Of a DNA stretch of 50,672 nt, positions 17,209-36,959 are shown piece by piece. Position 1 is the first letter of the stretch; each line of letters opens with the position of its first letter. The notes under the pieces are model-generated. The model was not told the DNA's origin, made no database searches, and worked only from the letters and a program-made list of their open reading frames with translations. A program made the translations under genes and the position numbers. This DNA comes from a virus. The stretch covers positions 1 through 50,672 of IMG/VR virus record IMGVR_UViG_3300028364_000048; one strand, 5' to 3'.

Positions 17209-18327
17209 CTATAGCATGAAGAACTTTTTAGCAACTGGGAACCGTGGGACGCCGCTTGGGAATTTACCGTTAAAGAACACCGTTGCTTTCCCACCCACGT
17301 ACATGCTTTCTTTGCTTAGCAAAGCTGACATTTGTCCCATACTTCCGGCGCACCCTGAGCTAAATGTCTTTCCTTGACTTGTAACACAGTTGACGGACTT
17401 AGCACAGCCGGACCACTGGCCTTTTCCTTCAACAAAGCCCACAATAACAAATTCCTCGTCGTCTTGTTCTTTCACTTTAATAAGTTGCCTAGGTCTTTTC
17501 TGCTGCTCGTATTCCTTGTCAGAGACGCGGACCATAGTTCCCTCATAACCTTCTATAAGGAATTTAGAATGGTTTTCGTAAATAGAGTCAAATGACCCGA
17601 CTCTTATAGTTTTTACAATCTTGATGTGGGGTATCCCATCAAGCATCCTACGAATTTCTTTATAACGGTGTAGAAAATTCCCTTTAAGAAGGCAGTCATA
17701 TACGTGAAGTTCTATGACATCTTCGCAATGGAGTGTATCTAAAAAGTCAACGTTTTTCTTTGTGAGCAAGCTCTGTATTTTAGTGAAATCTTCTCTTAGT
17801 TCAAAGTTAAACAGCTCACCGTCTATGACAAGTTCTGGATACTTATTAAAGACAGTCTTCAAGGCTTCTTCAATATGAGGGCACGTCTCAGTTTTGCGAA
17901 GTTCTCTTGACCAAAGACCCCTAGCGTCGGCTAAGCATCTAAACCCGTCAAGCTTTGGTTGAACGTAGCAGTTGCCATTTTTTATCGCACGCTTTACGTA
18001 GCTGACGTCTTTATCCATGTTGGCTTTTGCTAGCATAGCTCGGGGTATCTTGTCTTGCTCAAGCAGTTCATGTATAGATCTACGATACCCACTTGCCAGC
18101 TTATCACGCTCCATTGATTTTGCTTTATCTTCGGCAACTTGACTTGGAGACCTTTGGTTGGACCTACCAACGTTTAAAGCCTTGTAGGATGTTGGTGACG
18201 ACGCCTTAGGAGGCATATTCTCATCACCAGTAAAAGTCACAACCCTGTTATCAAAAGATTGCACATACCAGTATTTCACTTTTCCAGAAGGTGTTCTATA
18301 AAAAAGAAACCCTGATTTATATGTCAT
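17209..18327 (-). CDS. ATP-dependent DNA ligase
   Basis: 372 residues from the ATG that overlaps the helicase stop (ATGA); a TTG start six codons earlier is less likely. It seals nicks in duplex DNA by an enzyme-AMP intermediate. Motif I is QPKLDGFR with the adenylated Lys125; ELVIDGELFN (~165-174) is motif III, EGTMVRV (~262-268) motif IV and LIKVKE (~282-287) motif V. The OB-fold region follows. The first ~40 residues (GKVKYWYVQ) look like a small WGR-type extension, unusual in a compact phage ligase. It ends the helicase-ligase pair. Confidence 0.88.
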   Translation of the reverse strand: MTYKSGFLFYRTPSGKVKYWYVQSFDNRVVTFTGDENMPPKASSPTSYKALNVGRSNQRSPSQVAEDKAKSMERDKLASGYRRSIHELLEQDKIPRAMLAKANMDKDVSYVKRAIKNGNCYVQPKLDGFRCLADARGLWSRELRKTETCPHIEEALKTVFNKYPELVIDGELFNFELREDFTKIQSLLTKKNVDFLDTLHCEDVIELHVYDCLLKGNFLHRYKEIRRMLDGIPHIKIVKTIRVGSFDSIYENHSKFLIEGYEGTMVRVSDKEYEQQKRPRQLIKVKEQDDEEFVIVGFVEGKGQWSGCAKSVNCVTSQGKTFSSGCAGSMGQMSALLSKESMYVGGKATVFFNGKFPSGVPRFPVAKKFFML

Positions 18328-19793
18328 TGAAAGAACCCTTTCCAATTGGACACAACAACTTCGTCTACTAGCTTTTTCTTGGTTTTTAGGGCATTCAGTA
18401 TCTTTTCATCTATAGTACCTGGAGTGAACAAATCGATGTATCTTGCTTTTCTTTTTTGACCAATGCGGTGTATGCGATCCTCTGACTGGATACGTCTTTC
18501 AAGCGAGTAGTCATTGCTGTAGTAAATAGCAAGATCAGCAGTGGTAAGCGTGAGCCCCATACCAGCGCTTTGCGGGTTGGCAACAAAAAATCGACCTGGG
18601 TGGCTTGGGTCTTGAAAGTTCTTTGCTGCAACTTCTTTTTTTGCGCTACTCACACCACCGTGAAATTCTATTAAGCTTTCTTTCCCGTATTTGGCCACAA
18701 TCTCTGCAGCTACATCCCTGAGAGTTTGTCTATACGTGGCCCATACTACTACGTTGCCGCTCTCATTCTCAATCAAGTCCATTAATGTAGGTAGACGATT
18801 GTTTTCGATGGAGGCGTATTTCTCATTGCCAAAATCATCCTCGTATTTTAGCTGACCGCAAACAATCTGGTGGAGCTTTACGAGAAGCGTGAGGATGTTT
18901 GTAACCTCGACAGTATCGCCAAGCTCTTCAAGTTCAATGATTGCTTCTTGCTTTAGCTTCTCATACTTCGCGGACTGCAACTTTGTCATCTCCACCGCAA
19001 CGCGCTGATAGATTTTTTCGGGTAAGTCTAACGCGTCTTCTTTTTTTACAACTGACGCAAATGTGCTGATAAGATCAGAAAGCTCACTTTTGTTCTTGTA
19101 GCCTGTCACCACATCAAAGCTTCTATTTCCAAAAGTCTTTTTTTCAACGTCAGCAAAATAGTTTCTAAATGAGTAAAAAGACTTGTGCCCAAGAACTTCT
19201 TCTGTGGGAGCAAGAGCCATTGCTTGGCCAAACAACTCAAGCGGTCCATTTGTTATTGGAGTGCCTGTAAGCAGTCTGCGGTATTTGGCGGCTCTGCAAA
19301 ACTTGACAATAGCTTTGCTTCTCTTGGCCGTGTGTGTTTTAATCATAGAGCTTTCATCAACGCCGTGCATATAGTTTTTACCGACAACGCTGTACAGCTG
19401 TCTCATCATTTCAGTAAGTTTAACTGATATGGCTGACTCGGTATTAAACACGAAAATCTTGAAGCCATCAAACTCAAGAAATGTAGCCCAATCTCTTTTA
19501 AACTGCTTGTTTACCGCTTTTGCCGAGTTGTACCTGAATACTTTATAGTTTATCCTGTCAGGTACATGCGTCGGTATTTCAACCAATTCCATTGTTGGGC
19601 ACATGCCTTTGGTTGTTGATAGAACAAGAGCTTTAATCTCAGAAATCTCGTATAGGTAAGACGCATTGTCTAGCAGCATCTTTGTTTTTCCGGTTCCGGG
19701 CTCGCAGAAAAAACCCCAGTATGGAAGTCTGCTGCAGTGCTCCAAAATATCTCTTTGGTGCTGGTACGGCTTAGTTTTGTATATGTATTCCAT
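18324..19793 (-). CDS. SNF2-family DNA helicase/translocase
   Basis: 489 residues. An SF2 ATPase: Walker A EPGTGKT at 31-37, Walker B-type DESS at 146-149, motif III LTGTP at ~175-179, and the C-terminal lobe ending in motif VI QSEDRIHRIGQKRKA, the signature of SNF2/RapA-like enzymes. It should use ATP to move on duplex DNA, perhaps in recombination or fork repair. ATG 19793 is preferred over the TTG at 19817 because it has GAGG upstream and avoids the terminator stem. It is coupled to the ligase. Confidence 0.85.
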   Translation of the reverse strand: MEYIYKTKPYQHQRDILEHCSRLPYWGFFCEPGTGKTKMLLDNASYLYEISEIKALVLSTTKGMCPTMELVEIPTHVPDRINYKVFRYNSAKAVNKQFKRDWATFLEFDGFKIFVFNTESAISVKLTEMMRQLYSVVGKNYMHGVDESSMIKTHTAKRSKAIVKFCRAAKYRRLLTGTPITNGPLELFGQAMALAPTEEVLGHKSFYSFRNYFADVEKKTFGNRSFDVVTGYKNKSELSDLISTFASVVKKEDALDLPEKIYQRVAVEMTKLQSAKYEKLKQEAIIELEELGDTVEVTNILTLLVKLHQIVCGQLKYEDDFGNEKYASIENNRLPTLMDLIENESGNVVVWATYRQTLRDVAAEIVAKYGKESLIEFHGGVSSAKKEVAAKNFQDPSHPGRFFVANPQSAGMGLTLTTADLAIYYSNDYSLERRIQSEDRIHRIGQKRKARYIDLFTPGTIDEKILNALKTKKKLVDEVVVSNWKGFFQ

Positions 19794-23722: not shown

Positions 23723-25738
23723 TTATTTGGCGTCACCCCAGTTGTCAAGGAGCTTAGCGTCAGCAATAAATGGGATGCGGAAGCCGTAATGCCTTGCCAT
23801 AGCTTGCTCCATGACGTTAGAAAGTATGACGGCTTCTTCCTCGTTTCCGTAGATATTAATCTCGTCGTGAACAGCCATTTCCGCAACAATGCCGTGATCC
23901 TCATAAAGGTCAACAAGGGCATGTTTGGTTTGGTCAGCGGCTGTTCCCTGAACTATAGCGTTGAAAACCTTGTGAAGAAAAGCGCGTTCAAAATCATCGC
24001 CAAGTTGTCCACGAGCTTCCTCAATATCATCAAATGTATGGTTGTATCCCCAGGCCTTCCGAGCTTCCCATGATTTGGCTTGAAACTTGTTAAACCTTCG
24101 CCGCCTGCCTGAGGCTGTTTTAATGTAGCCACGATCTTGCACAAGCTGCTGCAACGCGTGTATAACTTCTTTAAGGAAAGGTGCTCCTTTGTAATACACT
24201 TCTTTGAGTTCCTTAGCTTCCTTCAGGGATAGCGCCATGGTATGCGCAAGCTTTGGGTCTCCCATCCCATAAAGAATGCCGAAGTTGAGATTTTTAAGAG
24301 GTAGTCGCTCTAGGTGTTGTTGCGTCATGTCCATGATTATTTTACCAACCATGCCGTGAAAATCAGTCCTGGGTGCTTTAATGAATATCTGCATCATGTC
24401 TTCGGCGCCTGTCAACCCGCGACCTTGCTTCATATCAACTTTGCCGTCTATGTCAATACGCAGCTTTGCACTTATCTCAATGCTAATCTTTGCTTCTTGT
24501 CCTGAAAAGTCAGCGTGTATAAATTTCTTACCTTCAGGCGCGATGAAGCAACCACGTATAATCGGTGTGTGAACCTTGTTGCGACCGGGTATTTGCTGAA
24601 GGTTAACCCGACGACTCGCCATGCGTCCAGATTTTGTGCCACCTTCTTCAGTTGGAAGCTGCATCCAGTTTGGGTGTATTCGAGAGTTGACCTCAGCATC
24701 TATAAAGTTTTCAATAAAGTCGTTGGACATCTTTTTTGAAACACGCAGGTCGAGCAAAGTTTCGCAAAGTATATCACCGGGGTGCGCCTCAAGCCATTCG
24801 TTGCCAACTGATGGGCCAAACCTAGTTGACGGAACATTGTCATAGCCAAGCTCTTCCATGAGTTGTCCGACACGACTAGATGCCCAGTAATTTAGGTCTC
24901 TCCGGATGATTGAGTACAGCTCTTCATATTTATTCCTAATGCGATTGTCATACCAAATTTTTGCCTTGTGCACTTTCTCCATGTCAAGAAGCGCACCTTT
25001 TTTGCGCATCTTCCATAGCAGTGGCTGAAGCTTCTGCTCAAGACTAAACACATTCTCAAGACCATCGCGCTGCATCAATGCCTGTTGCTTCATGAAGATC
25101 TCAATGGGCTTTATCGCGTCGCCCTCCGCATACTCGGCAACATATTTTGCAGGTATCCAACGCATATTCTTTTTTGGATCAGCGGAATATGCCAAAGCAG
25201 CTTCAATCAACCTGCCCTCGTCCTTGCCTTCACCGAGGTAAGACTTAGCTATCGACTCGAGTGAATACCCGTCTTTGCGTTCTTCGTCAAGCAAAGGCTC
25301 TGCAACCTGAACATCACACCAAGGACCAAGTATTTCAACGCCAACTGAGTCTAGGCTTTCAGCGTCATACTGAAGGTTTGCCCCGCACTTTTGCTCATCA
25401 CCACCAAGCACGTGCTTAAGGTATCTGGCAACTTGGTCGATGTCACAGTTTTCGGTGTCAACGTGTCTCAAGGGTAGGTAAAGACTTAGCCCGTCGTCAT
25501 TAGCGAGACTCACACCGATCAACTGGGCGTCTCCACGGATAAATCCGGGACCTTTGGTTGTAAGGTGTGGGTCATCAGTTTCGGTGTCAACGCCAATGAT
25601 GTAGGAGCCGCGAAGGTCTGGCCACTCGCTTGACGGTGTTGGCTTCCAGTCGGGCTCGTCAAGAAACCCGGGCAGCGGAAGCTGCCCGAGTTGCTTTACT
25701 GTTTTTGCTCGGCCTGTGCTTGGGTATTTTTTCTTCAT
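23723..25738 (-). CDS. Family A DNA polymerase with 3'-5' exonuclease
   Basis: 671 residues, the replicative polymerase of T7/Pol I type without a 5'-3' nuclease domain. Exonuclease motifs: GVDTETDD (Asp51, Glu53), GANLQYDAESL (Asp125), YAEGD (~203-207). Polymerase motif A is HADFSGQEAKI (Asp410), motif B KNLNFGILYG (Lys482, Tyr490), motif C VHDE (624-626). All catalytic carboxylates are present, so it should be active and proofreading. It is the second gene of a unit with the 83-residue protein upstream (ATGA overlap). Confidence 0.93.
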   Translation of the reverse strand: MKKKYPSTGRAKTVKQLGQLPLPGFLDEPDWKPTPSSEWPDLRGSYIIGVDTETDDPHLTTKGPGFIRGDAQLIGVSLANDDGLSLYLPLRHVDTENCDIDQVARYLKHVLGGDEQKCGANLQYDAESLDSVGVEILGPWCDVQVAEPLLDEERKDGYSLESIAKSYLGEGKDEGRLIEAALAYSADPKKNMRWIPAKYVAEYAEGDAIKPIEIFMKQQALMQRDGLENVFSLEQKLQPLLWKMRKKGALLDMEKVHKAKIWYDNRIRNKYEELYSIIRRDLNYWASSRVGQLMEELGYDNVPSTRFGPSVGNEWLEAHPGDILCETLLDLRVSKKMSNDFIENFIDAEVNSRIHPNWMQLPTEEGGTKSGRMASRRVNLQQIPGRNKVHTPIIRGCFIAPEGKKFIHADFSGQEAKISIEISAKLRIDIDGKVDMKQGRGLTGAEDMMQIFIKAPRTDFHGMVGKIIMDMTQQHLERLPLKNLNFGILYGMGDPKLAHTMALSLKEAKELKEVYYKGAPFLKEVIHALQQLVQDRGYIKTASGRRRRFNKFQAKSWEARKAWGYNHTFDDIEEARGQLGDDFERAFLHKVFNAIVQGTAADQTKHALVDLYEDHGIVAEMAVHDEINIYGNEEEAVILSNVMEQAMARHYGFRIPFIADAKLLDNWGDAK

Positions 25739-26726: not shown

Positions 26727-27161
26727 CTATTTTGGAATAAACTTAAACCACTCAAGTCCTGCGTCTAGCCACCAACGTCTCGCAGTCGAGTGTGGGTAGT
26801 CTTCAAGAAATACAATGCGCTTGCAACCAGTCATCAGCAACAGCTTTGTGCAGTCGTTGCATGGGCTTGCCGTGATATAAGCCGTTGCAATTTTTGACAC
26901 GTCATAGCAGTGAAGCAACGCGGCCTGTTCAGCGTGTGACGCTCGGCAAGAACTTAGGTCAGTCCCAGACGCAGCTGAAGCGGCAATGCACGGATCATCA
27001 ATGCAGTGCATTTGACCGGGAGACACCCCATTGAAACCAGTTGCAAGAATTCTGTTTTTGTCATCAACCAGAATACAGCCGACTTTTCGACGAGCGCAAG
27101 TGCCACGCGAGGCAACCAGAGAAACCATGGATGCATAGTATTCATCATTTGTTGGTCGCAC
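26727..27161 (-). CDS. dCMP deaminase
   Basis: 144 residues; GTG start overlapping the previous TAG by one base. A zinc-dependent deaminase that turns dCMP into dUMP. SHAEQAALLHC gives His76 and catalytic Glu78; SPCNDC gives Cys101 and Cys104, the zinc ligands. Extra Cys residues before the core (HCIDDPC) recall the structural zinc region of T4-type enzymes. It is the last gene of the leftward nucleotide cluster (MazG, kinase, synthase homologue, deaminase). Confidence 0.9.
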   Translation of the reverse strand: MRPTNDEYYASMVSLVASRGTCARRKVGCILVDDKNRILATGFNGVSPGQMHCIDDPCIAASAASGTDLSSCRASHAEQAALLHCYDVSKIATAYITASPCNDCTKLLLMTGCKRIVFLEDYPHSTARRWWLDAGLEWFKFIPK

Positions 27162-27364
27162 TACACCAGACCTTTGTCAATGGCAAACTGCTCTTCCATG
27201 GAAATGACAAAGACATTTTGCATCCTTTCGTGCGGCTGTACTTCAATCATAGAAAGAGGGAGCCACACTGCGTCCCTGTCGCTTTTACTTTCCGACACTA
27301 AAACCGCCCTTTCTGTTCGGGCGTGGATGTAGAAGTCAATATCGATTATTGTTGATCTTGACAT
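27161..27364 (-). CDS. Hypothetical 67-residue protein in the nucleotide cluster
   Basis: ATG 27364 follows GGAG inside the end of the synthase gene; the upstream extension is rejected. The product is a mainly beta protein (MSRSTIIDIDFYIHARTERA, AVWLPLSMIEVQ). No family recognised. Its position between the synthase homologue and the deaminase suggests co-expression with nucleotide metabolism. Confidence 0.55.
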   Translation of the reverse strand: MSRSTIIDIDFYIHARTERAVLVSESKSDRDAVWLPLSMIEVQPHERMQNVFVISMEEQFAIDKGLV

Positions 27365-27365
27365 T

Positions 27366-28160
27366 TTAAAGCTCCAATATGCCGCTGCGCGAACCATCGC
27401 TTGCACAAGAATATAGACGGTCAAGAAACTGCGACGGAGGCAAAGAAGCAATGTTGTTGAAGTTAACGTCTTCTAGTTCGTAGTCCCATGCGGTAACAAT
27501 TTTGTTCACAGACTCAAAGTCTTTGTCGTAAAGATGGGCGGAACCAAGTGTTAAGTAAAGGTTTCCAAGCTCGAGGCTACGGCCGCAGCTGTAGTGATGA
27601 CGCAAAATCGACAGAATATAAGCTGAGGTAAGTGAAAACAGAATGCTGTCGTATGGCAACCCCATGTAAGCGTCGCTTGACCTCATCATTGCAACGCAAT
27701 GGATCACACCACCACGGATAAGAAACTGAAGTGACAAGGTGCAAGGGATGTCTTTGCTTGGCCCTGGACGCTCACGCCAAATATTGATAACTGCTTGACG
27801 GGAGCCTTTATCGTCGGCCAATGTTTTGCACACGTACGAGAGTTGGTCAACAATTTTGGGACCGTACGCGCCAGACATAAAGTAGCCGTCGTCGGAGTAT
27901 GGTGACATCTTACCAAAAGGGTGGATATCCGACAACAGGTTTTTGCCAGACAAAATCCACCAGGGCTCTGCAGCCGCAAACCTAAAGCCAAGATTTCTTT
28001 CCCCTACGCTTGGAACCGGGTTTGACATTGGCACCGTATACTTTGCACCAATTATTTCGCGGAAGTTGAGACCACGGGCCTGTTCGTCGGATCCTCTTTT
28101 CATGATTGTATCGAGGTGTCCAAGGTAGGCTTGGCTTGAAAAATTAGTGTATATGGTCAT
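27366..28160 (-). CDS. Thymidylate synthase-fold enzyme, dCMP-type (possible dCMP hydroxymethylase)
   Basis: 264 residues from ATG 28160 behind GGAGACG, the usual length of thymidylate synthase. The nucleophile is in IPCTLSLQFLI (Cys140). The substrate-reading segment is MRSSDAYMGLPYDSI: where thymidylate synthase has Asn (GLPFN, E. coli Asn177) this protein has Asp171. That Asp is known to mark dCMP hydroxymethylases such as T4 gp42, and an Asn-to-Asp change shifts the E. coli enzyme to dCMP. The usual C-terminal APVAI is absent. It may methylate or hydroxymethylate dCMP; an unusual dUMP enzyme is possible. Confidence 0.72.
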   Translation of the reverse strand: MTIYTNFSSQAYLGHLDTIMKRGSDEQARGLNFREIIGAKYTVPMSNPVPSVGERNLGFRFAAAEPWWILSGKNLLSDIHPFGKMSPYSDDGYFMSGAYGPKIVDQLSYVCKTLADDKGSRQAVINIWRERPGPSKDIPCTLSLQFLIRGGVIHCVAMMRSSDAYMGLPYDSILFSLTSAYILSILRHHYSCGRSLELGNLYLTLGSAHLYDKDFESVNKIVTAWDYELEDVNFNNIASLPPSQFLDRLYSCASDGSRSGILEL

Positions 28161-28161
28161 G

Positions 28162-28698
28162 TTACGTCTCCAAGTTTTTAAGTATTGCAGCTGAGAGTAT
28201 GTCTTGTGGTAGGGCGTCCCCGAATGGGTCAAGTATGTCGTGACGTATAACAGGGCACAGGCTTTCGAGTATCTTTATTTGACGCTCGTATTCATCATAC
28301 ACATCGATCATGTCGTTGTACATCTCTAAACGGTTCTTTTTTACCTCGTTGAAATGGCTGATGTAATCTTGCTTGTTCATCGGGTGGCAACAGACAAAAG
28401 TGGCGCCCAGGTTATTTGCACGATTGTATAGTTCAAGCGTTCTGTGCCGCTGCTCTGGACCGTCACGGAAAACATTACCGTAAACAACTTCGCTCATACG
28501 CCAGCGGTCAATTACAACCTGAGAGCTTTCAGACAGAATAACCGCCGCCTCAAGCAAATCCAAGTGATATTTCACCATGTAACCTGCCAGGTCTTTGTTG
28601 TACGTGGCGTGAATGTAGTGACCACCAATTTCCTTGGCAAGGGTGGTTTTCCCCGTTGCGTCTCCACCTTCCAGAATTATTATGGGGTGTATGCTCAT
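28162..28698 (-). CDS. Deoxynucleoside monophosphate kinase (thymidylate kinase-like)
   Basis: 178 residues. P-loop GGDATGKTT (11-19) and DRW (64-66), the base-sensing Asp-Arg pair of thymidylate/deoxynucleoside kinases, with a lid helix rich in Lys/Arg (NEVKKNRLEMYND). It should move phosphate from ATP to a dNMP. Beside a dCMP-type synthase homologue it could act, like T4 gp1, on a modified dCMP. It overlaps the MazG-like gene (ATGA) and ends one base before the synthase start. Confidence 0.78.
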   Translation of the reverse strand: MSIHPIIILEGGDATGKTTLAKEIGGHYIHATYNKDLAGYMVKYHLDLLEAAVILSESSQVVIDRWRMSEVVYGNVFRDGPEQRHRTLELYNRANNLGATFVCCHPMNKQDYISHFNEVKKNRLEMYNDMIDVYDEYERQIKILESLCPVIRHDILDPFGDALPQDILSAAILKNLET

Positions 28699-29252
28699 AC
28701 CAAGTCACTTAAGTCAGGCGCAACCCAACCCTCCGGTTTTACAACATCCCACGTCGGATTTCGCTTTCCTTCCTTATCTGATTTTGCACGGACTTTTGAC
28801 ATGTTTGCCTTGTGCACACGGTCAAACGCCACGTTGAAAGAAAAGCCGTAGTCAAGTGCCATTTTTCGACAGCCACAGCAAATATCCAAGAGCTTGTTCA
28901 ACTCAACAAAGTCCGGGTCTAGGGAAAGTGTGTAACCACTTGACATCTTGTAAAGGTCAAGAAAGCTGAAGCTGTGTTCGGTGTGTCTTTCTACACGATC
29001 TTGAGCGCCTCCAGCAAGAAAGTAGGTGCCCATGGCAACGTAAGTAAGGTCTACAAGCCCGTCCAGCGTCTCATGCCTGTCCTTGCGGGCAAACGCCTCA
29101 TACGTTTCTTTTGCTTCCTCAACAAGGAACTTTTCACGGAACTGAACAAGGTCCGTCGGCATGTCAAGCAGGCTTTTGAACTGAGGCAGCTGAAACTTCT
29201 CGTGAAAAGAAACAATGCTCAGGTATTGCAACGTCAATTGCGAGTTTTTCAT
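28695..29252 (-). CDS. MazG-like nucleotide pyrophosphohydrolase
   Basis: 185 residues, all helix. EEAKE (45-49) followed by ETLDGLVD (61-68) is the E-E-x-x-E ... E-x-x-D metal-binding pattern of the MazG/all-alpha NTP pyrophosphatase family. AFDRVHKANMSKV (~143-155) is also typical of phage members. It would split a dNTP to dNMP and pyrophosphate. In T4 the related role (gp56, dCTPase) both removes normal dCTP and supplies dCMP. Which nucleotide is used here cannot be read from sequence. ATGA overlaps link it to both neighbours. Confidence 0.75.
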   Translation of the reverse strand: MKNSQLTLQYLSIVSFHEKFQLPQFKSLLDMPTDLVQFREKFLVEEAKETYEAFARKDRHETLDGLVDLTYVAMGTYFLAGGAQDRVERHTEHSFSFLDLYKMSSGYTLSLDPDFVELNKLLDICCGCRKMALDYGFSFNVAFDRVHKANMSKVRAKSDKEGKRNPTWDVVKPEGWVAPDLSDLV

Positions 29253-30154
29253 TTGCCATCTTCCTCAGAAAAGTTTTTGTCAAGGTTTTGCCAGTCGTCC
29301 GACGATGCCCAAGGCTCCTTGATTTCCGATAGAGGCGGGAACTTCCGCTTGTATTCGGGACCGGCCGGACGCAAGTGCCAGATAGAGTTGCGCGACAAAT
29401 GTGGGAACGGCGTGCAGAACATGTTAGACAGGACGTTCGTGTCGTGGTACGCACGTGAGGCATTGAAAAAAGCCTCCATACCGGGGTACTCTTTGAACAG
29501 AGCATCCTTGTACTCGGTGATTGAAGCAAACGTTCCAAAGTTGGACATGACTTGAAAGCCGGCGTTTTCGATCATTGCACCGAGCGCCGCGTGGCGCATT
29601 TCATTGACGTGGTTTTTGGCTGTGGCAGTAACATTCCAACAAGGCGTTGACAAAATGACTTCCGCTTTGCCAAGTTTGGCAATCCGATGGAAACCCTCAA
29701 CCATACCTCGGGCATGCTTTGCGCTGACGTGTTCAAGTACTTCAAAGCACGTGATAAGGTTTGGAAGCATGTGACGCTGATCCGACTTTTTGACAGCGTA
29801 GTTGCCACTGGTTTTCAGCTTAATGTCCCGAGGGAAAATGGTGCTTCCGTATGTAGTGACGTCCATGCTTCCCCAATTACGATCGTGAAACTTTTCAGCG
29901 GCGTTGTAGTCAATACCCACATACTCGCAAAGCAAGCGGTTGGAATGAAGCAGTCGAGGCAACGGAAGGTCTGTGCCGCAACCGACGTCAAGGATACGAG
30001 TATCTTTGTAACGCGATCCGGAATGCATGATTTTTGCAACGTATGACCAGCGAAGGCAGTGCGCGATATAATCGCGATGAATAAACCCTCGAATTTCTGC
30101 TTGGTCAACGGAGAGGTCAGTGCCGTCAATAACACGACCATATTTGTTTGCCAT
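29249..30154 (-). CDS. Class I SAM-dependent methyltransferase
   Basis: 301 residues with a GGGGG ribosome site. Motif I is ILDVGCGTDLP (~54-64), an acidic strand end (YVGIDYN) follows, and FEVLEHV is post-motif sequence of the Rossmann methyltransferase fold. No DNA methylase DPPY/NPPF or PC catalytic motif is visible, so it is not an obvious DNA methylase. As first gene of the nucleotide cluster it could act on a nucleotide, on modified DNA, or on a small molecule or protein. Confidence 0.7.
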   Translation of the reverse strand: MANKYGRVIDGTDLSVDQAEIRGFIHRDYIAHCLRWSYVAKIMHSGSRYKDTRILDVGCGTDLPLPRLLHSNRLLCEYVGIDYNAAEKFHDRNWGSMDVTTYGSTIFPRDIKLKTSGNYAVKKSDQRHMLPNLITCFEVLEHVSAKHARGMVEGFHRIAKLGKAEVILSTPCWNVTATAKNHVNEMRHAALGAMIENAGFQVMSNFGTFASITEYKDALFKEYPGMEAFFNASRAYHDTNVLSNMFCTPFPHLSRNSIWHLRPAGPEYKRKFPPLSEIKEPWASSDDWQNLDKNFSEEDGK

Positions 30155-32979: not shown

Positions 32980-35535
32980 CTATCTCACAATGTTAAGGTT
33001 TGACTGGCTGTCTTCTTTGTTATAAACTGCAAAGCTTTCATTGTCACCGGTTTCTTTTACAAAGGTTTGCTTTGCTTCTAGTATGCCCGGCAGCATGAGC
33101 TTTTGGACTCCGCTATACGATGAAAGGAAACGGCCGCGAGGATTATTGTTTATCTCAACACCGGCCTGTCCTTTTCCGTATGTGTATGTTCTCAGATACT
33201 TGTAGAAAGCTCTTGTCTTCATGTGGCGGCGCTCGTCACGAATAGACTCTTTCTGCCAGGCCTCAAACAAGTCCCACAGCACTGACCTTTCTACCACTGC
33301 GTTCTGGTTCCAAGGCATAAAGCTAGGACCTGACGGACCTGACACAAACCCGCCATTATAAAGTGACTTTGAATACCAGCGGTTGAAAGTATACTCTGGA
33401 GAGTATTCTTGGCTGATCATTTTTTGTTTTGCAAGCGCGCTTGTTTTTGGTATCTCAAGCTTTATATTTGGTAACTTGTATTCTTTAAGATACTTATAAA
33501 GAGCCCATGGACCGCCATTAGACTTCTCTTTAAGCAGCGCATCCCAGTAAGACGTGTCACCGACGTGCGTGTCCGGTACCTCAATTGGAACCAGACGTCT
33601 TTCTCCTTTCGTGACTTGTGCAAGGCTATCCCTATTTGTAGTAAAGATAAAATGCATGAAATTGTCGCGCGTGATCTGTCCTTTACCTTTTGCCTCGCAA
33701 ACAAACGTTGAAGACGTTGACAGGTGCTTGAGTGTATCGAGTTGCGCTCCCTGTGATATTTTTGCCTCTTCAACGCGTATCAATAACTTTCCAAGCAGCT
33801 GATGGTTAAACTGCCCAGTGATCCTGTTTACATCTGATGAGGTAAAACAGGCCTGGTCGCCAAGCATGTGCTGCAGGTAGTCGCCAAATATTGATTTGCC
33901 TGATCCGTGCTCTCCAATCAGGGCAAGCATCCCACCGCTTCTTTTATCTGGAGTCTGTATCATATGAGCAAGAAAGCGCATTACATAGTCGTGCAATTCT
34001 TTAGGATCTTCCTCACCCGAGCAAATAAACTTTACATGCTCGAGAAACTTTTCACATGATCCGCTTTGGTCCATGCTTTCAGCGGCAACACCTTGCCAAA
34101 GGTTTACAACCCAACCATTGTCGCTGTCTTTGTATATCTTTCCTTTTGACGGGTTTACAGCAGATTTTGAAAACTTGCGCCGCTCGCCACCTGAGAACCA
34201 AATAGCAGCGGCATTCTTTGCTGGCTTCTTTGGTTCAACTTCTATTTTTATGTTACCATAAAGCAAACTAAAACTTTGGTAAGGTATGATTGCCTCTTCG
34301 GGGCTTTTGTATATGCTATCAAGGATAACCACTTGCGGATGCCGACCTTCCAGAAGAACACCAAACCGTTGATTAAAATAGTCAGTCATGTCTCTGAAGT
34401 GTGAGTAATCCCCGGAAAAAGGGAAGAAAAGCCCTTTTTCAAGTTGATCGTCGGGTCCATCTGCGTCGTCGTCATAAGATATCTCAGATCTTGGATTGTG
34501 GCTTTCGCCACTCTCATCTAAAAACCTTGCTATAAGCTCTAAGAACTTAGGAGGATGCGCATCTGTTGAAGTTGGGTAGTCTGCAATGTCCCATTTTTTC
34601 GGTAGGTTAAACCAATTTATGTCGACGACGTCAATGCTAGTTGCAATCCCGCCAAGAGCCTTTTTCACATCAAACGCGCCAAGAACTCCAGCTGTGTCCG
34701 CGTCGGGTATGATAATGACATTTCGGCCTTTAAGTGAAGACCAGTCGGTGTTGCCAACGGCTTGAGTACCACCTTTCCAAGTAGTAAATACGTAGCCAGG
34801 GTATCGTTGCGATATTTCTGTGTTACCATAGTCTGCGGCTTTTTCGCCTTCAACCACAATAACGATTGCGTCGGACTTAGTAGAAACGTAGGTTAACGAA
34901 TAGAGCATGTGCAGGTGTTTTTCCGACGACCAACCCTTGCACTGCCACTTTGGATTGTTGGGATCAGTCGGCCTATTTGGCTCGTCATGCTCGTCATAGT
35001 AGCCAAAGCTGTATTGCAGAATTCTCTTAGGATGGCCAACCGCGTCGTAGCGAACAACGATGCTATTTGCAAAGTCCCCGTCTGTGTAAATGTGAACCAT
35101 AGACTTGTGGAATTGCACAGGTCTACCGACTTTTTTATCTTGCAGGGATATAGTGTCCCTTAGCCTTGACGCATAGCCAGCCGCTGCTCTGTGGGATACT
35201 GGTATGCTGTTCCACTTGAATTTTGGCTGCGAACGCTCCGGGTATTTTTTTTCGTATTTACGATTTTCTTCTCTCGCTTTCTCAGCCTCAACCTGCTGTG
35301 GCCACGCGCCTCGTTCGGTGAGCAGTTTATATACTTCTTTTTCACAACCATGTGACCAGCACTTAATGAGAATGCCGACGCCTTCTTTAAGTGATACTGA
35401 TAAACTTGCGTTTGTGTCTCCATGAATTGGGCAGTAACAGGTAAAGCTTCCGTCTTGCCCAACAGTCCCATCCCACCCAAACTCTTTTACGCAAAGCTGT
35501 TCCACTTGGGAAAGAGTGTAGTGGAAGTCAGTCAT
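32980..35535 (-). CDS. Primase-helicase (zinc, TOPRIM, SF3 helicase)
   Basis: 851 residues with three recognisable parts. N-terminal zinc finger: CPIHGD (Cys35, His38) and CWSHGC (Cys59, Cys64), as in CHC2 primases. Middle TOPRIM: IVIVVEGEKAADYG and VIIIPDADTAGV (about 235-320). C-terminal superfamily 3/D5-like helicase: Walker A IGEHGSGKS, Walker B LLIRVEEA, and sensor HFIFTTN (about 555-680), followed by arginine-rich GERRLVPIEV. It should make primers and unwind the fork, as a single-protein replisome core with the family A polymerase. It overlaps the GIY-YIG gene by eight bases. Confidence 0.88.
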   Translation of the reverse strand: MTDFHYTLSQVEQLCVKEFGWDGTVGQDGSFTCYCPIHGDTNASLSVSLKEGVGILIKCWSHGCEKEVYKLLTERGAWPQQVEAEKAREENRKYEKKYPERSQPKFKWNSIPVSHRAAAGYASRLRDTISLQDKKVGRPVQFHKSMVHIYTDGDFANSIVVRYDAVGHPKRILQYSFGYYDEHDEPNRPTDPNNPKWQCKGWSSEKHLHMLYSLTYVSTKSDAIVIVVEGEKAADYGNTEISQRYPGYVFTTWKGGTQAVGNTDWSSLKGRNVIIIPDADTAGVLGAFDVKKALGGIATSIDVVDINWFNLPKKWDIADYPTSTDAHPPKFLELIARFLDESGESHNPRSEISYDDDADGPDDQLEKGLFFPFSGDYSHFRDMTDYFNQRFGVLLEGRHPQVVILDSIYKSPEEAIIPYQSFSLLYGNIKIEVEPKKPAKNAAAIWFSGGERRKFSKSAVNPSKGKIYKDSDNGWVVNLWQGVAAESMDQSGSCEKFLEHVKFICSGEEDPKELHDYVMRFLAHMIQTPDKRSGGMLALIGEHGSGKSIFGDYLQHMLGDQACFTSSDVNRITGQFNHQLLGKLLIRVEEAKISQGAQLDTLKHLSTSSTFVCEAKGKGQITRDNFMHFIFTTNRDSLAQVTKGERRLVPIEVPDTHVGDTSYWDALLKEKSNGGPWALYKYLKEYKLPNIKLEIPKTSALAKQKMISQEYSPEYTFNRWYSKSLYNGGFVSGPSGPSFMPWNQNAVVERSVLWDLFEAWQKESIRDERRHMKTRAFYKYLRTYTYGKGQAGVEINNNPRGRFLSSYSGVQKLMLPGILEAKQTFVKETGDNESFAVYNKEDSQSNLNIVR

Positions 35536-36286
35536 TCTGATTTATCCGATTGTTACAGTTATTTTTAAGCTCTTCGTAATAGCCATTTCTTACAGAATGC
35601 GAAATGCTCCCAGAGTATTTTTTAGCAAATAAAGAAAAGCTTGAAAATTCTCTTGCTAAGTCAAACGACTTTTGCTTATTCCATTTTATGCCAACGATCC
35701 ACCCAAAATCTTCCTGCAACCTGTTAAGTATACCTAACTTAAGAGCTGCAGCATAAACAGAAGTGTTTTTCTTAAACTCAGATTTGTTTTTACACAATAA
35801 AGCGGCGGCATAGACTGAAGACTCTGAGTGAATTTGTTGAGAGCCACCTAAATTTCCTGCACGATTAACGTTTGTGACAGTAAACCCTAAATCCTTATAA
35901 CTCTGCACATACTTTTCTTCAAGTTCAGCGGCTTGACCCGCATCAATGTAATCAGTTAAAAGCGTATACTCAAAATCACTGGACATGATTATTGCAACAG
36001 TTGAATGCTGCGTAAGCATTTTGTGCTTGTATAGTCTTACATCAAAATTATACGTTAAGCCTATATACGCTTTGTTTAATGACTTGGAAAAAAGAACATA
36101 GACAAGCCTTTTATACCTATTGCCGGCACCGGCGTGGTGCTTTATATCTTTTAGCCTATCTTTTTTCCACATTCTTGCATAAAGGTTAAAGTTTTTGACA
36201 CGCAATTCACTGCGTGTAGGGTACTCTGAAGCCAACAAGAAGTCTTCTTGTTCGTTATAGAACCTATAAACCTCTTTTTTAATCAT
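35528..36286 (-). CDS. GIY-YIG endonuclease with C-terminal helical repeats
   Basis: 252 residues from the ATG that overlaps the previous stop region; an ATG at 36301 is an alternative. RLVYVLFSKSLNKAYIGLTYNFD (in part) shows the GIY-YIG strands (VYVL and AYIGLT) and the catalytic-type KH. Two to three later segments (FKKNTSVYAAALKLGILNRL; FSLFAKKYSGSISHSVRNGY) look like NUMOD-type helix-turn-helix repeats that bind DNA in homing enzymes. It lies free-standing between two replication genes, so it may be a mobile or a domesticated nuclease. Confidence 0.68.
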   Translation of the reverse strand: MIKKEVYRFYNEQEDFLLASEYPTRSELRVKNFNLYARMWKKDRLKDIKHHAGAGNRYKRLVYVLFSKSLNKAYIGLTYNFDVRLYKHKMLTQHSTVAIIMSSDFEYTLLTDYIDAGQAAELEEKYVQSYKDLGFTVTNVNRAGNLGGSQQIHSESSVYAAALLCKNKSEFKKNTSVYAAALKLGILNRLQEDFGWIVGIKWNKQKSFDLAREFSSFSLFAKKYSGSISHSVRNGYYEELKNNCNNRINQND

Positions 36287-36959
36287 CCCTGTCAACGCCA
36301 TCTTCCTCATTATTGTAGCTTTTTCTAGGATATTCGACATAGCCCTTATCGTAAAGCTGTGGCAGATAATATTGGAGAATGGAGAAAGGAGGCTGTTTTG
36401 TCTTAAGACCAAACTTGTGCAAACTAGCGCTAAGTATTTTTAGCTCGTTCATATCGTATGCGGATTGCTGCCCGTCGATAAGAGCTGCAATGATCACCTT
36501 ACACTGTTTGGGGAATTTGACCTCAGCTTCTGCAAGGCCTTTTAAATCAAACAAAAATGAATTGCCTTTGTTTTTAAGCTTGGCCTTCATCCGCGTGATT
36601 TTAGACTTTTGAAAGATTGCCCAAACGGCCTCAAACGGGTTTATTGTAACGTCCGTAAGACGGTTACCGGTAATCAGGCGATACATTTTACGCGCTTGAA
36701 TTGGCCTATAAACTGTCTTAAAATGGTTAATGCTAACGATAACATTGCTGCTGAAGACATTTGGGTTCATAAACCTTGATATGGCCTCAAAGCTTTCATA
36801 CGCGCGGTAGTTAAGAAAATTTACACTTTCCCTATAGTAAACCGTAACAAACGCGCAAGGTGCTTCTCTTGGCACGTTAGGATTTTCAACAAACTCAAGC
36901 AGGTGCTGATACGCCTGACTCGGGTGGTCATACGGGGGGACGACTTTAACGTGTTTCAT
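36279..36959 (-). CDS. Hypothetical 226-residue protein, first gene after the origin candidate
   Basis: Not recognised. The middle (INPFEAVWAIFQKSKITRMK) and end (PPFSILQYYLPQLYDKGYVE) are helical; the C-terminal ~60 residues resemble a winged-helix, and the tail is acidic (NNEEDGVDRDD). It sits at the edge of the AT-rich gene-free region, where phages often encode origin- or replication-initiation-related proteins. This is inference from position. Confidence 0.5.
   Translation of the reverse strand: MKHVKVVPPYDHPSQAYQHLLEFVENPNVPREAPCAFVTVYYRESVNFLNYRAYESFEAISRFMNPNVFSSNVIVSINHFKTVYRPIQARKMYRLITGNRLTDVTINPFEAVWAIFQKSKITRMKAKLKNKGNSFLFDLKGLAEAEVKFPKQCKVIIAALIDGQQSAYDMNELKILSASLHKFGLKTKQPPFSILQYYLPQLYDKGYVEYPRKSYNNEEDGVDRDD

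Follow-up and report, generated by a model that had tools for sequence, protein, structure and literature searches.

A gene of the window (the whole stretch of 50,672 nucleotides analysed, IMG/VR virus record IMGVR_UViG_3300028364_000048) very likely encodes an enzyme of the thymidylate synthase (TS) superfamily that acts as a dCMP 5-hydroxymethylase and would feed an hm-dCTP pathway that replaces dC in DNA. The gene belongs to an operon on one strand, in which the ends overlap or abut, in the order methyltransferase, MazG, kinase, TS homologue, 67-aa ORF and dCMP deaminase. The features concerned are as follows:

27366..28160, minus strand: TS-family enzyme, predicted dCMP 5-hydroxymethylase (Glu65, Arg121, Asp137, Cys140, Thr141, Ser161, Asp163, Asp171, His209, Tyr211)
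27648..27650, minus strand: codon GAC of Asp171, in GLPYD, at the position of E. coli TS Asn177 and T4 gp42 Asp179
27741..27743, minus strand: codon TGC of the nucleophile Cys140, in PCTLSLQFLI
27750..27752, minus strand: codon GAC of Asp137, three residues before Cys140, at the position of T4 gp42 Asp145
28162..28698, minus strand: P-loop nucleotide kinase, 178 aa (PHROG 761 thymidylate kinase, 1.1e-11; invariant P-loop residues, DR..SE..Y motif)
28695..29252, minus strand: MazG/PRA-PH type nucleotide pyrophosphohydrolase (PF01503, 1.5e-7; conserved EExxE...DxxxD; closest solved structure DR2231)
29249..30154, minus strand: class I SAM methyltransferase (PF13489, 4.4e-10; AF2 model, pLDDT 88)
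27161..27364, minus strand: 67-aa ORF between TS homologue and deaminase (PHROG 8389, unknown function, 5.6e-6; in 1 relative)
26727..27161, minus strand: dCMP deaminase (PF00383, 2.8e-19; PHROG 174, 2e-35; HAE and PCxxC zinc motifs, by alignment)
23723..25738, minus strand: family A DNA polymerase (PF00476, 1.5e-46), downstream in the window and relatives

The TS homologue starts with ATG, preceded by a Shine-Dalgarno-like TTGGAGA, and its translation of 264 aa plus stop matches Pfam Thymidylat_synt (PF00303) at 4.7e-20, above the curated cut-off. The catalytic set of the superfamily (Glu58, Cys146, Asp169, His207 and Tyr209) is present as E65, C140, D163, H209 and Y211. A sequence-only reading had placed Cys140 in PCTLSLQFLI and Asp171 in GLPYD with no APVAI end, all of which can be seen in the translation, and had equated Asp171 with Asn177 of E. 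coli TS; in the alignment with E. coli ThyA, Asp171 indeed falls on Asn177 and Cys140 on Cys146, and the Asp is invariant in the clade. The alignment with TS, T4 gp42 and modifying enzymes that this reading had proposed does not displace Asp171 from position 177. The C-terminus reads SGILEL and lacks the APVAI-type site-closing tail of dTMP-forming TS, and its scores fall far short of the NCBIfam cut-offs for TS equivalogs. No second TS-family gene was found in the 50,672-base record, in which 27366-28160 is the sole one, and no ThyX was found in the window.

In the TS family, position 177 is the base reader. Enzymes of known activity were aligned at three class-discriminating positions: Cys minus 3, Cys plus 1 and E. 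coli position 177. The residue code is L/H/N in E. coli ThyA and D/N/N in the SPO1 dUMP hydroxymethylase (gp29), the latter code being found also in Kuttervirus, PaMx11 and Montesquieu. The T4 gp42 dCMP and MilA CMP hydroxymethylases carry D/T/D, as does the window protein; the Asp that had been ascribed to T4 gp42 at position 177 is thus seen in the alignment (Asp179). Asp145 of T4 gp42 is needed for hydroxymethylation, its Asn variant is inactive, and its proposed role is activation of the water molecule that supplies the hydroxyl (PMC6400193). Since Asp137 occupies this position, which is Leu in TS, hydroxymethylation appears favoured over methylation, and the complete D/T/D code likewise favours hydroxymethylation of dCMP. 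The earlier proposal that the product is either 5-methyl- or 5-hydroxymethyl-dCMP therefore holds as regards the dCMP-type site (Asp171), and its two-way choice is narrowed toward the hydroxymethyl product.

A dCMP methylase of the Xp12 kind, with 5-methyl-dCMP as product and 5-methylcytosine (5mC) in the DNA, is unlikely, even though a single change to Asp at 177 confers dCMP methylase activity on the TS of E. coli or L. casei (as cited in PMC8670742) and Xp12 DNA, 100% 5mC, is resistant likewise (PMC7653180). The TS homologues of Mallos and RDJL2, which served in this comparison as unproven stand-ins for the methylase of the proven 5mC phage Xp12 (MT664984), have the code N/P/D and an adjoining DHFR gene, whereas in the window and its relatives the code is D/T/D and DHFR was not found. 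Both Xp12-type marks as defined on these two phages, no acid at Cys minus 3 and a DHFR partner, are thus missing from the window, as is the TS C-terminal tail. A DHFR neighbour fits a methylase because that enzyme forms DHF; the failure to find DHFR in the window and relatives is expected if the product is THF. In RDJL Phi 2 (L095:3004-4876) and Mallos (L179:2345-4161), the gene with Asp177, Asn at Cys minus 3 and Pro after the Cys is followed by dCMP deaminase and DHFR; these two homologues, annotated as thymidylate synthase, are probable dCMP methylases that would yield 5mC.

Other residues of the site bear on the substrate. Arg121 and Ser161 of the window protein are deoxy-type residues; their counterparts in the ribo-preferring MilA are Lys133 and Ala176 (PMC5175136), a difference that favours a deoxynucleotide as the more likely substrate. 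Two residues before the catalytic Tyr, a Ser/Thr (T4 Ser94) has been proposed to belong to the hydroxymethylase signature; Gly97 is found there in the window and all close relatives, a departure that speaks against the hydroxymethylase reading. The SPO1 dUMP hydroxymethylase has Ala and no Ser there; thus a Ser at this position is not universal for hydroxymethylation. The phosphate ligand Arg127 of E. coli is replaced by Gln122 in the window, which also counts against this reading.

An alignment-based search returned 80 IMG/VR loci, which together with phage records gave 86 relatives besides the window; the search patterns contained neither Asp171 nor Asp137. When viral contigs were searched with the single TS-homologue sequence, no matches were found, although the alignment search did find them. 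Asp171, Asp137, Cys140, Glu65, Tyr99, Arg121, Ser161, Asp163, His209 and Tyr211 are present in all 87 sequences, and Gln122 is kept in 86 of the 87. Such invariance across 86 relatives implies that these residues are not there by chance. No near-identical phage was found in the phage collection. The best PDB match is the MilA CMP 5-hydroxymethylase, both by single sequence (9e-21, vs 8e-13 for the best TS) and by profile (1.9e-38 vs 4.4e-23), and a fold search with the AF2 model (pLDDT 93) also puts MilA first (2.6e-21 vs 1.3e-16). By overall profile similarity, T4 gp42, which is very divergent, stands further from the family than E. coli ThyA does. A phylogenetic tree with long branches did not place the nearest relative of the clade and was left out of the evidence.

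In 45 related loci the strict order methyltransferase-MazG-kinase-TS-deaminase-polymerase is observed. Among the 52 loci with enough flanking DNA, the kinase is present in 50, MazG in 44, the methyltransferase in 42 and the deaminase in 41; the kinase adjoins the TS homologue in most relatives, and two cultured pelagiphages possess only the kinase and TS genes of the operon. This conservation, like the residues and the family assignment, is a matter of direct observation. The substrate, the chemistry, the specificity of the kinase and MazG proteins and the base in DNA are suggested by characterised relatives, from which the following scheme may be drawn. Cys140 would attack C6 of dCMP, with Asp171 holding the N3/amino edge, and the methylene of CH2-THF would be placed on C5. 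Water activated by Asp137 would then add to the exocyclic methylene, giving 5-hydroxymethyl-dCMP and THF. The MazG-type protein (28695..29252), probably a dCTP/dUTP hydrolase, would empty the dCTP pool and supply dCMP, and the neighbouring kinase (28162..28698) would phosphorylate hydroxymethyl-dCMP, which a host kinase would convert to hm-dCTP. The family A DNA polymerase (23723..25738), which presumably uses the modified dNTP, would build hm-dCTP into DNA instead of dC, while the dCMP deaminase would divert dCMP to dUMP and dTTP.

The T4 hm-dCTP pathway consists of dCTPase (gp56), dCMP hydroxymethylase (gp42), dNMP kinase (gp1) and dCMP deaminase (cd), and the partner genes of the window belong to the same functional classes. 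The window enzyme shares with T4 gp42 the Asp at 177, the Asp at Cys minus 3, the Thr after the Cys and the absence of a TS tail; however, the sequences are very divergent, with Gly97 for T4 Ser94 and Gln122 for T4 Arg124, and the window genes lie in one operon. Homology of the MazG protein to T4 gp56 was not supported, no relation being detectable, and neither was that of the kinase to gp1, the match being confined to the P-loop. Thus the likeness to the T4 pathway is functional, and the roles in the nucleotide pool rest on family membership. No T4-like beta-glucosyltransferase (T4 b-gt as query), PF00534 glycosyltransferase, carbamoyltransferase or other known type of tailoring gene was found in the window, the first being a further difference from T4. 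The nucleoside antibiotic enzymes MilA and BcmA, both CMP 5-hydroxymethylases, also share D/T/D, and MilA is the closest solved structure in sequence and fold; the window differs from MilA in its deoxy-type residues and in its context of phage replication. A compact, T4-like cytosine-replacement pathway with fixed gene order would be spread over many otherwise different phages.

In many relatives the kinase is extended at its C-terminus by some 140 aa forming a domain akin to family 4 uracil-DNA glycosylases (UDG), with solved-UDG profile matches at 3e-4 (L007:7037-8020, L006:2319-3299, L010:6898-7929, also L011, L019, L035, L039, L044, L077 and L081). The window kinase does not have this domain, so the fusion of kinase and UDG in this type of cytosine-modification operon is seen only in relatives.

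Stenotrophomonas phage AXL3 contains the same operon and D/T/D residues: its gp27-gp31 are five gene families in the order of the window, with the same active-site residues. AXL3 differs in the extra C-terminal UDG-like domain of its kinase, in a methyltransferase only about 28% identical and in having a ThyX as well. Of 37 restriction enzymes tried on its DNA, 35 failed to cut and the two that did were TasI (AATT) and Tru1I (TTAA), a G/C-dependent resistance; its authors described the modification as unknown, read gp28 as a thymidylate synthase and noted a second, ThyX-type enzyme (PMC7504290). MluCI (AATT) and MseI (TTAA) likewise digest T4 DNA, whose hmC is glucosylated, to completion, and the 5mC DNA of Xp12 is similarly resistant (PMC7653180). 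By restriction resistance alone, 5hmC, 5mC and a capped form cannot be told apart. The MspI resistance of AXL3 was considered as a sign of modification beyond 5hmC and dropped, because modification of every C changes both C's of the site. The operon supplies a specific genetic basis for the AXL3 resistance, which had lacked an explanation, and, being common to phages that include this one, suggests that the virus of the window very probably masks its DNA through modified cytosine.

AXL3 also bears on two other explanations. That the gene is an ordinary TS or dUMP hydroxymethylase in which residue 177 has drifted is highly unlikely. It would account for the PF00303 family, for the adjoining dCMP deaminase, which makes dUMP, and for the record annotations of relatives as "thymidylate synthase" or "deoxyuridylate hydroxymethyltransferase", AXL3 gp28 having been read as TS (PMC7504290). 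However, Asp171 is invariant in 86 relatives, SPO1 gp29 has Asn both at 177 and after the Cys, and the equivalog cut-offs are widely missed. Moreover, AXL3 has ThyX for dTMP, and the enzymes that cut its DNA have A/T-only sites, contrary to expectation for modified T. Production of the modified nucleotide for pool, regulation or salvage alone, with normal cytosine in the DNA, is highly improbable: it is consistent with the lack of known tailoring genes in the window, but the AXL3 restriction pattern (PMC7504290), the MazG and kinase partners in the operon, and the published enrichment of such genes in DNA that had been selected for modified cytosine (PMC8670742) all argue against it.

This enrichment comes from MetaGPA (eLife 2021), in which positions 177 (Asp in modified contigs) and 147 were the top TS residues of cytosine-modified contigs; the Asp177 TS co-occurs there with PRA-PH and dCMP deaminase, and the tailoring enzyme is a carbamoyltransferase (PMC8670742). 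The window enzyme shares Asp177, the changed residue 147 and both partners, and adds one more member to an association already published. Hydroxymethylation of dCMP would be expected to lead to modified cytosine in the DNA of this phage, a proposal supported by the gene neighbourhood, the AXL3 restriction pattern and the published Asp177 association. A further likeness lies at window positions 17209-18345 (minus strand), an ATP-dependent DNA ligase with matches to PF01068 and PF14743, two of the domain families that MetaGPA associates most strongly with cytosine-modified contigs (PMC8670742). The window differs in having no carbamoyltransferase and in its linked SAM methyltransferase, a link that the main text of the MetaGPA paper does not mention (PMC8670742). 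The methyltransferase-bearing operon, of which no description was found in the open-licence literature, may be the new part.

Relatives of this methyltransferase occur in 5 of 50,697 phage records, all 5 with an Asp-type TS nearby. When it was used as bait in IMG/VR and bacterial genomes, 83 loci were obtained, of which 73 contain a TS homologue, always with Asp171 if that position is present; the remaining 10 lie on contigs that stop less than 1.5 kb downstream of the methyltransferase. Judged by contig names, the 80 viral contigs obtained include about 24 already in the TS-homologue set and about 56 new ones. In 8 new loci (L105, L107-L112, L114) the same methyltransferase stands by a second Asp-type TS subgroup, which resembles T4 in having Ser at window position 97 and Arg at 122 and still has the code D/T/D.

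Profile matches of the methyltransferase are weak, to Hen1, UbiG and others, and Foldseek of the AF2 model, tried as a guide to its substrate class, returned the general class I fold alone (TM ~0.4). From the tight link with the TS homologue we infer that the enzyme most likely acts on modified cytosine or its precursor. In one locus (L029:4977-6986) it is fused in frame to a C5-cytosine methylase domain (PF00145, 1.8e-16), which likewise hints at a role in cytosine chemistry. The gene is singled out as a candidate for an undescribed DNA base: tentatively, it might alter hm-dCMP, hm-dCTP or hmC in DNA, for instance by O-methylation to 5-methoxymethylcytosine. If so, a methyl group would replace the glucose of T4 or the carbamoyl of the MetaGPA phages, and AXL3, already grown in the laboratory, would carry the same base.

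Two observations concern the rest of the window. GANTC occurs 53 times in the whole window against 178 expected (sd 13), and the terminase is closest to those of Brevundimonas and Roseobacter phages; together these suggest an alphaproteobacterial host with a CcrM-type methylase. At 35528-36337 (minus strand), a GIY-YIG endonuclease gene, possibly a homing endonuclease, adjoins a primase-like gene (32980-35535).
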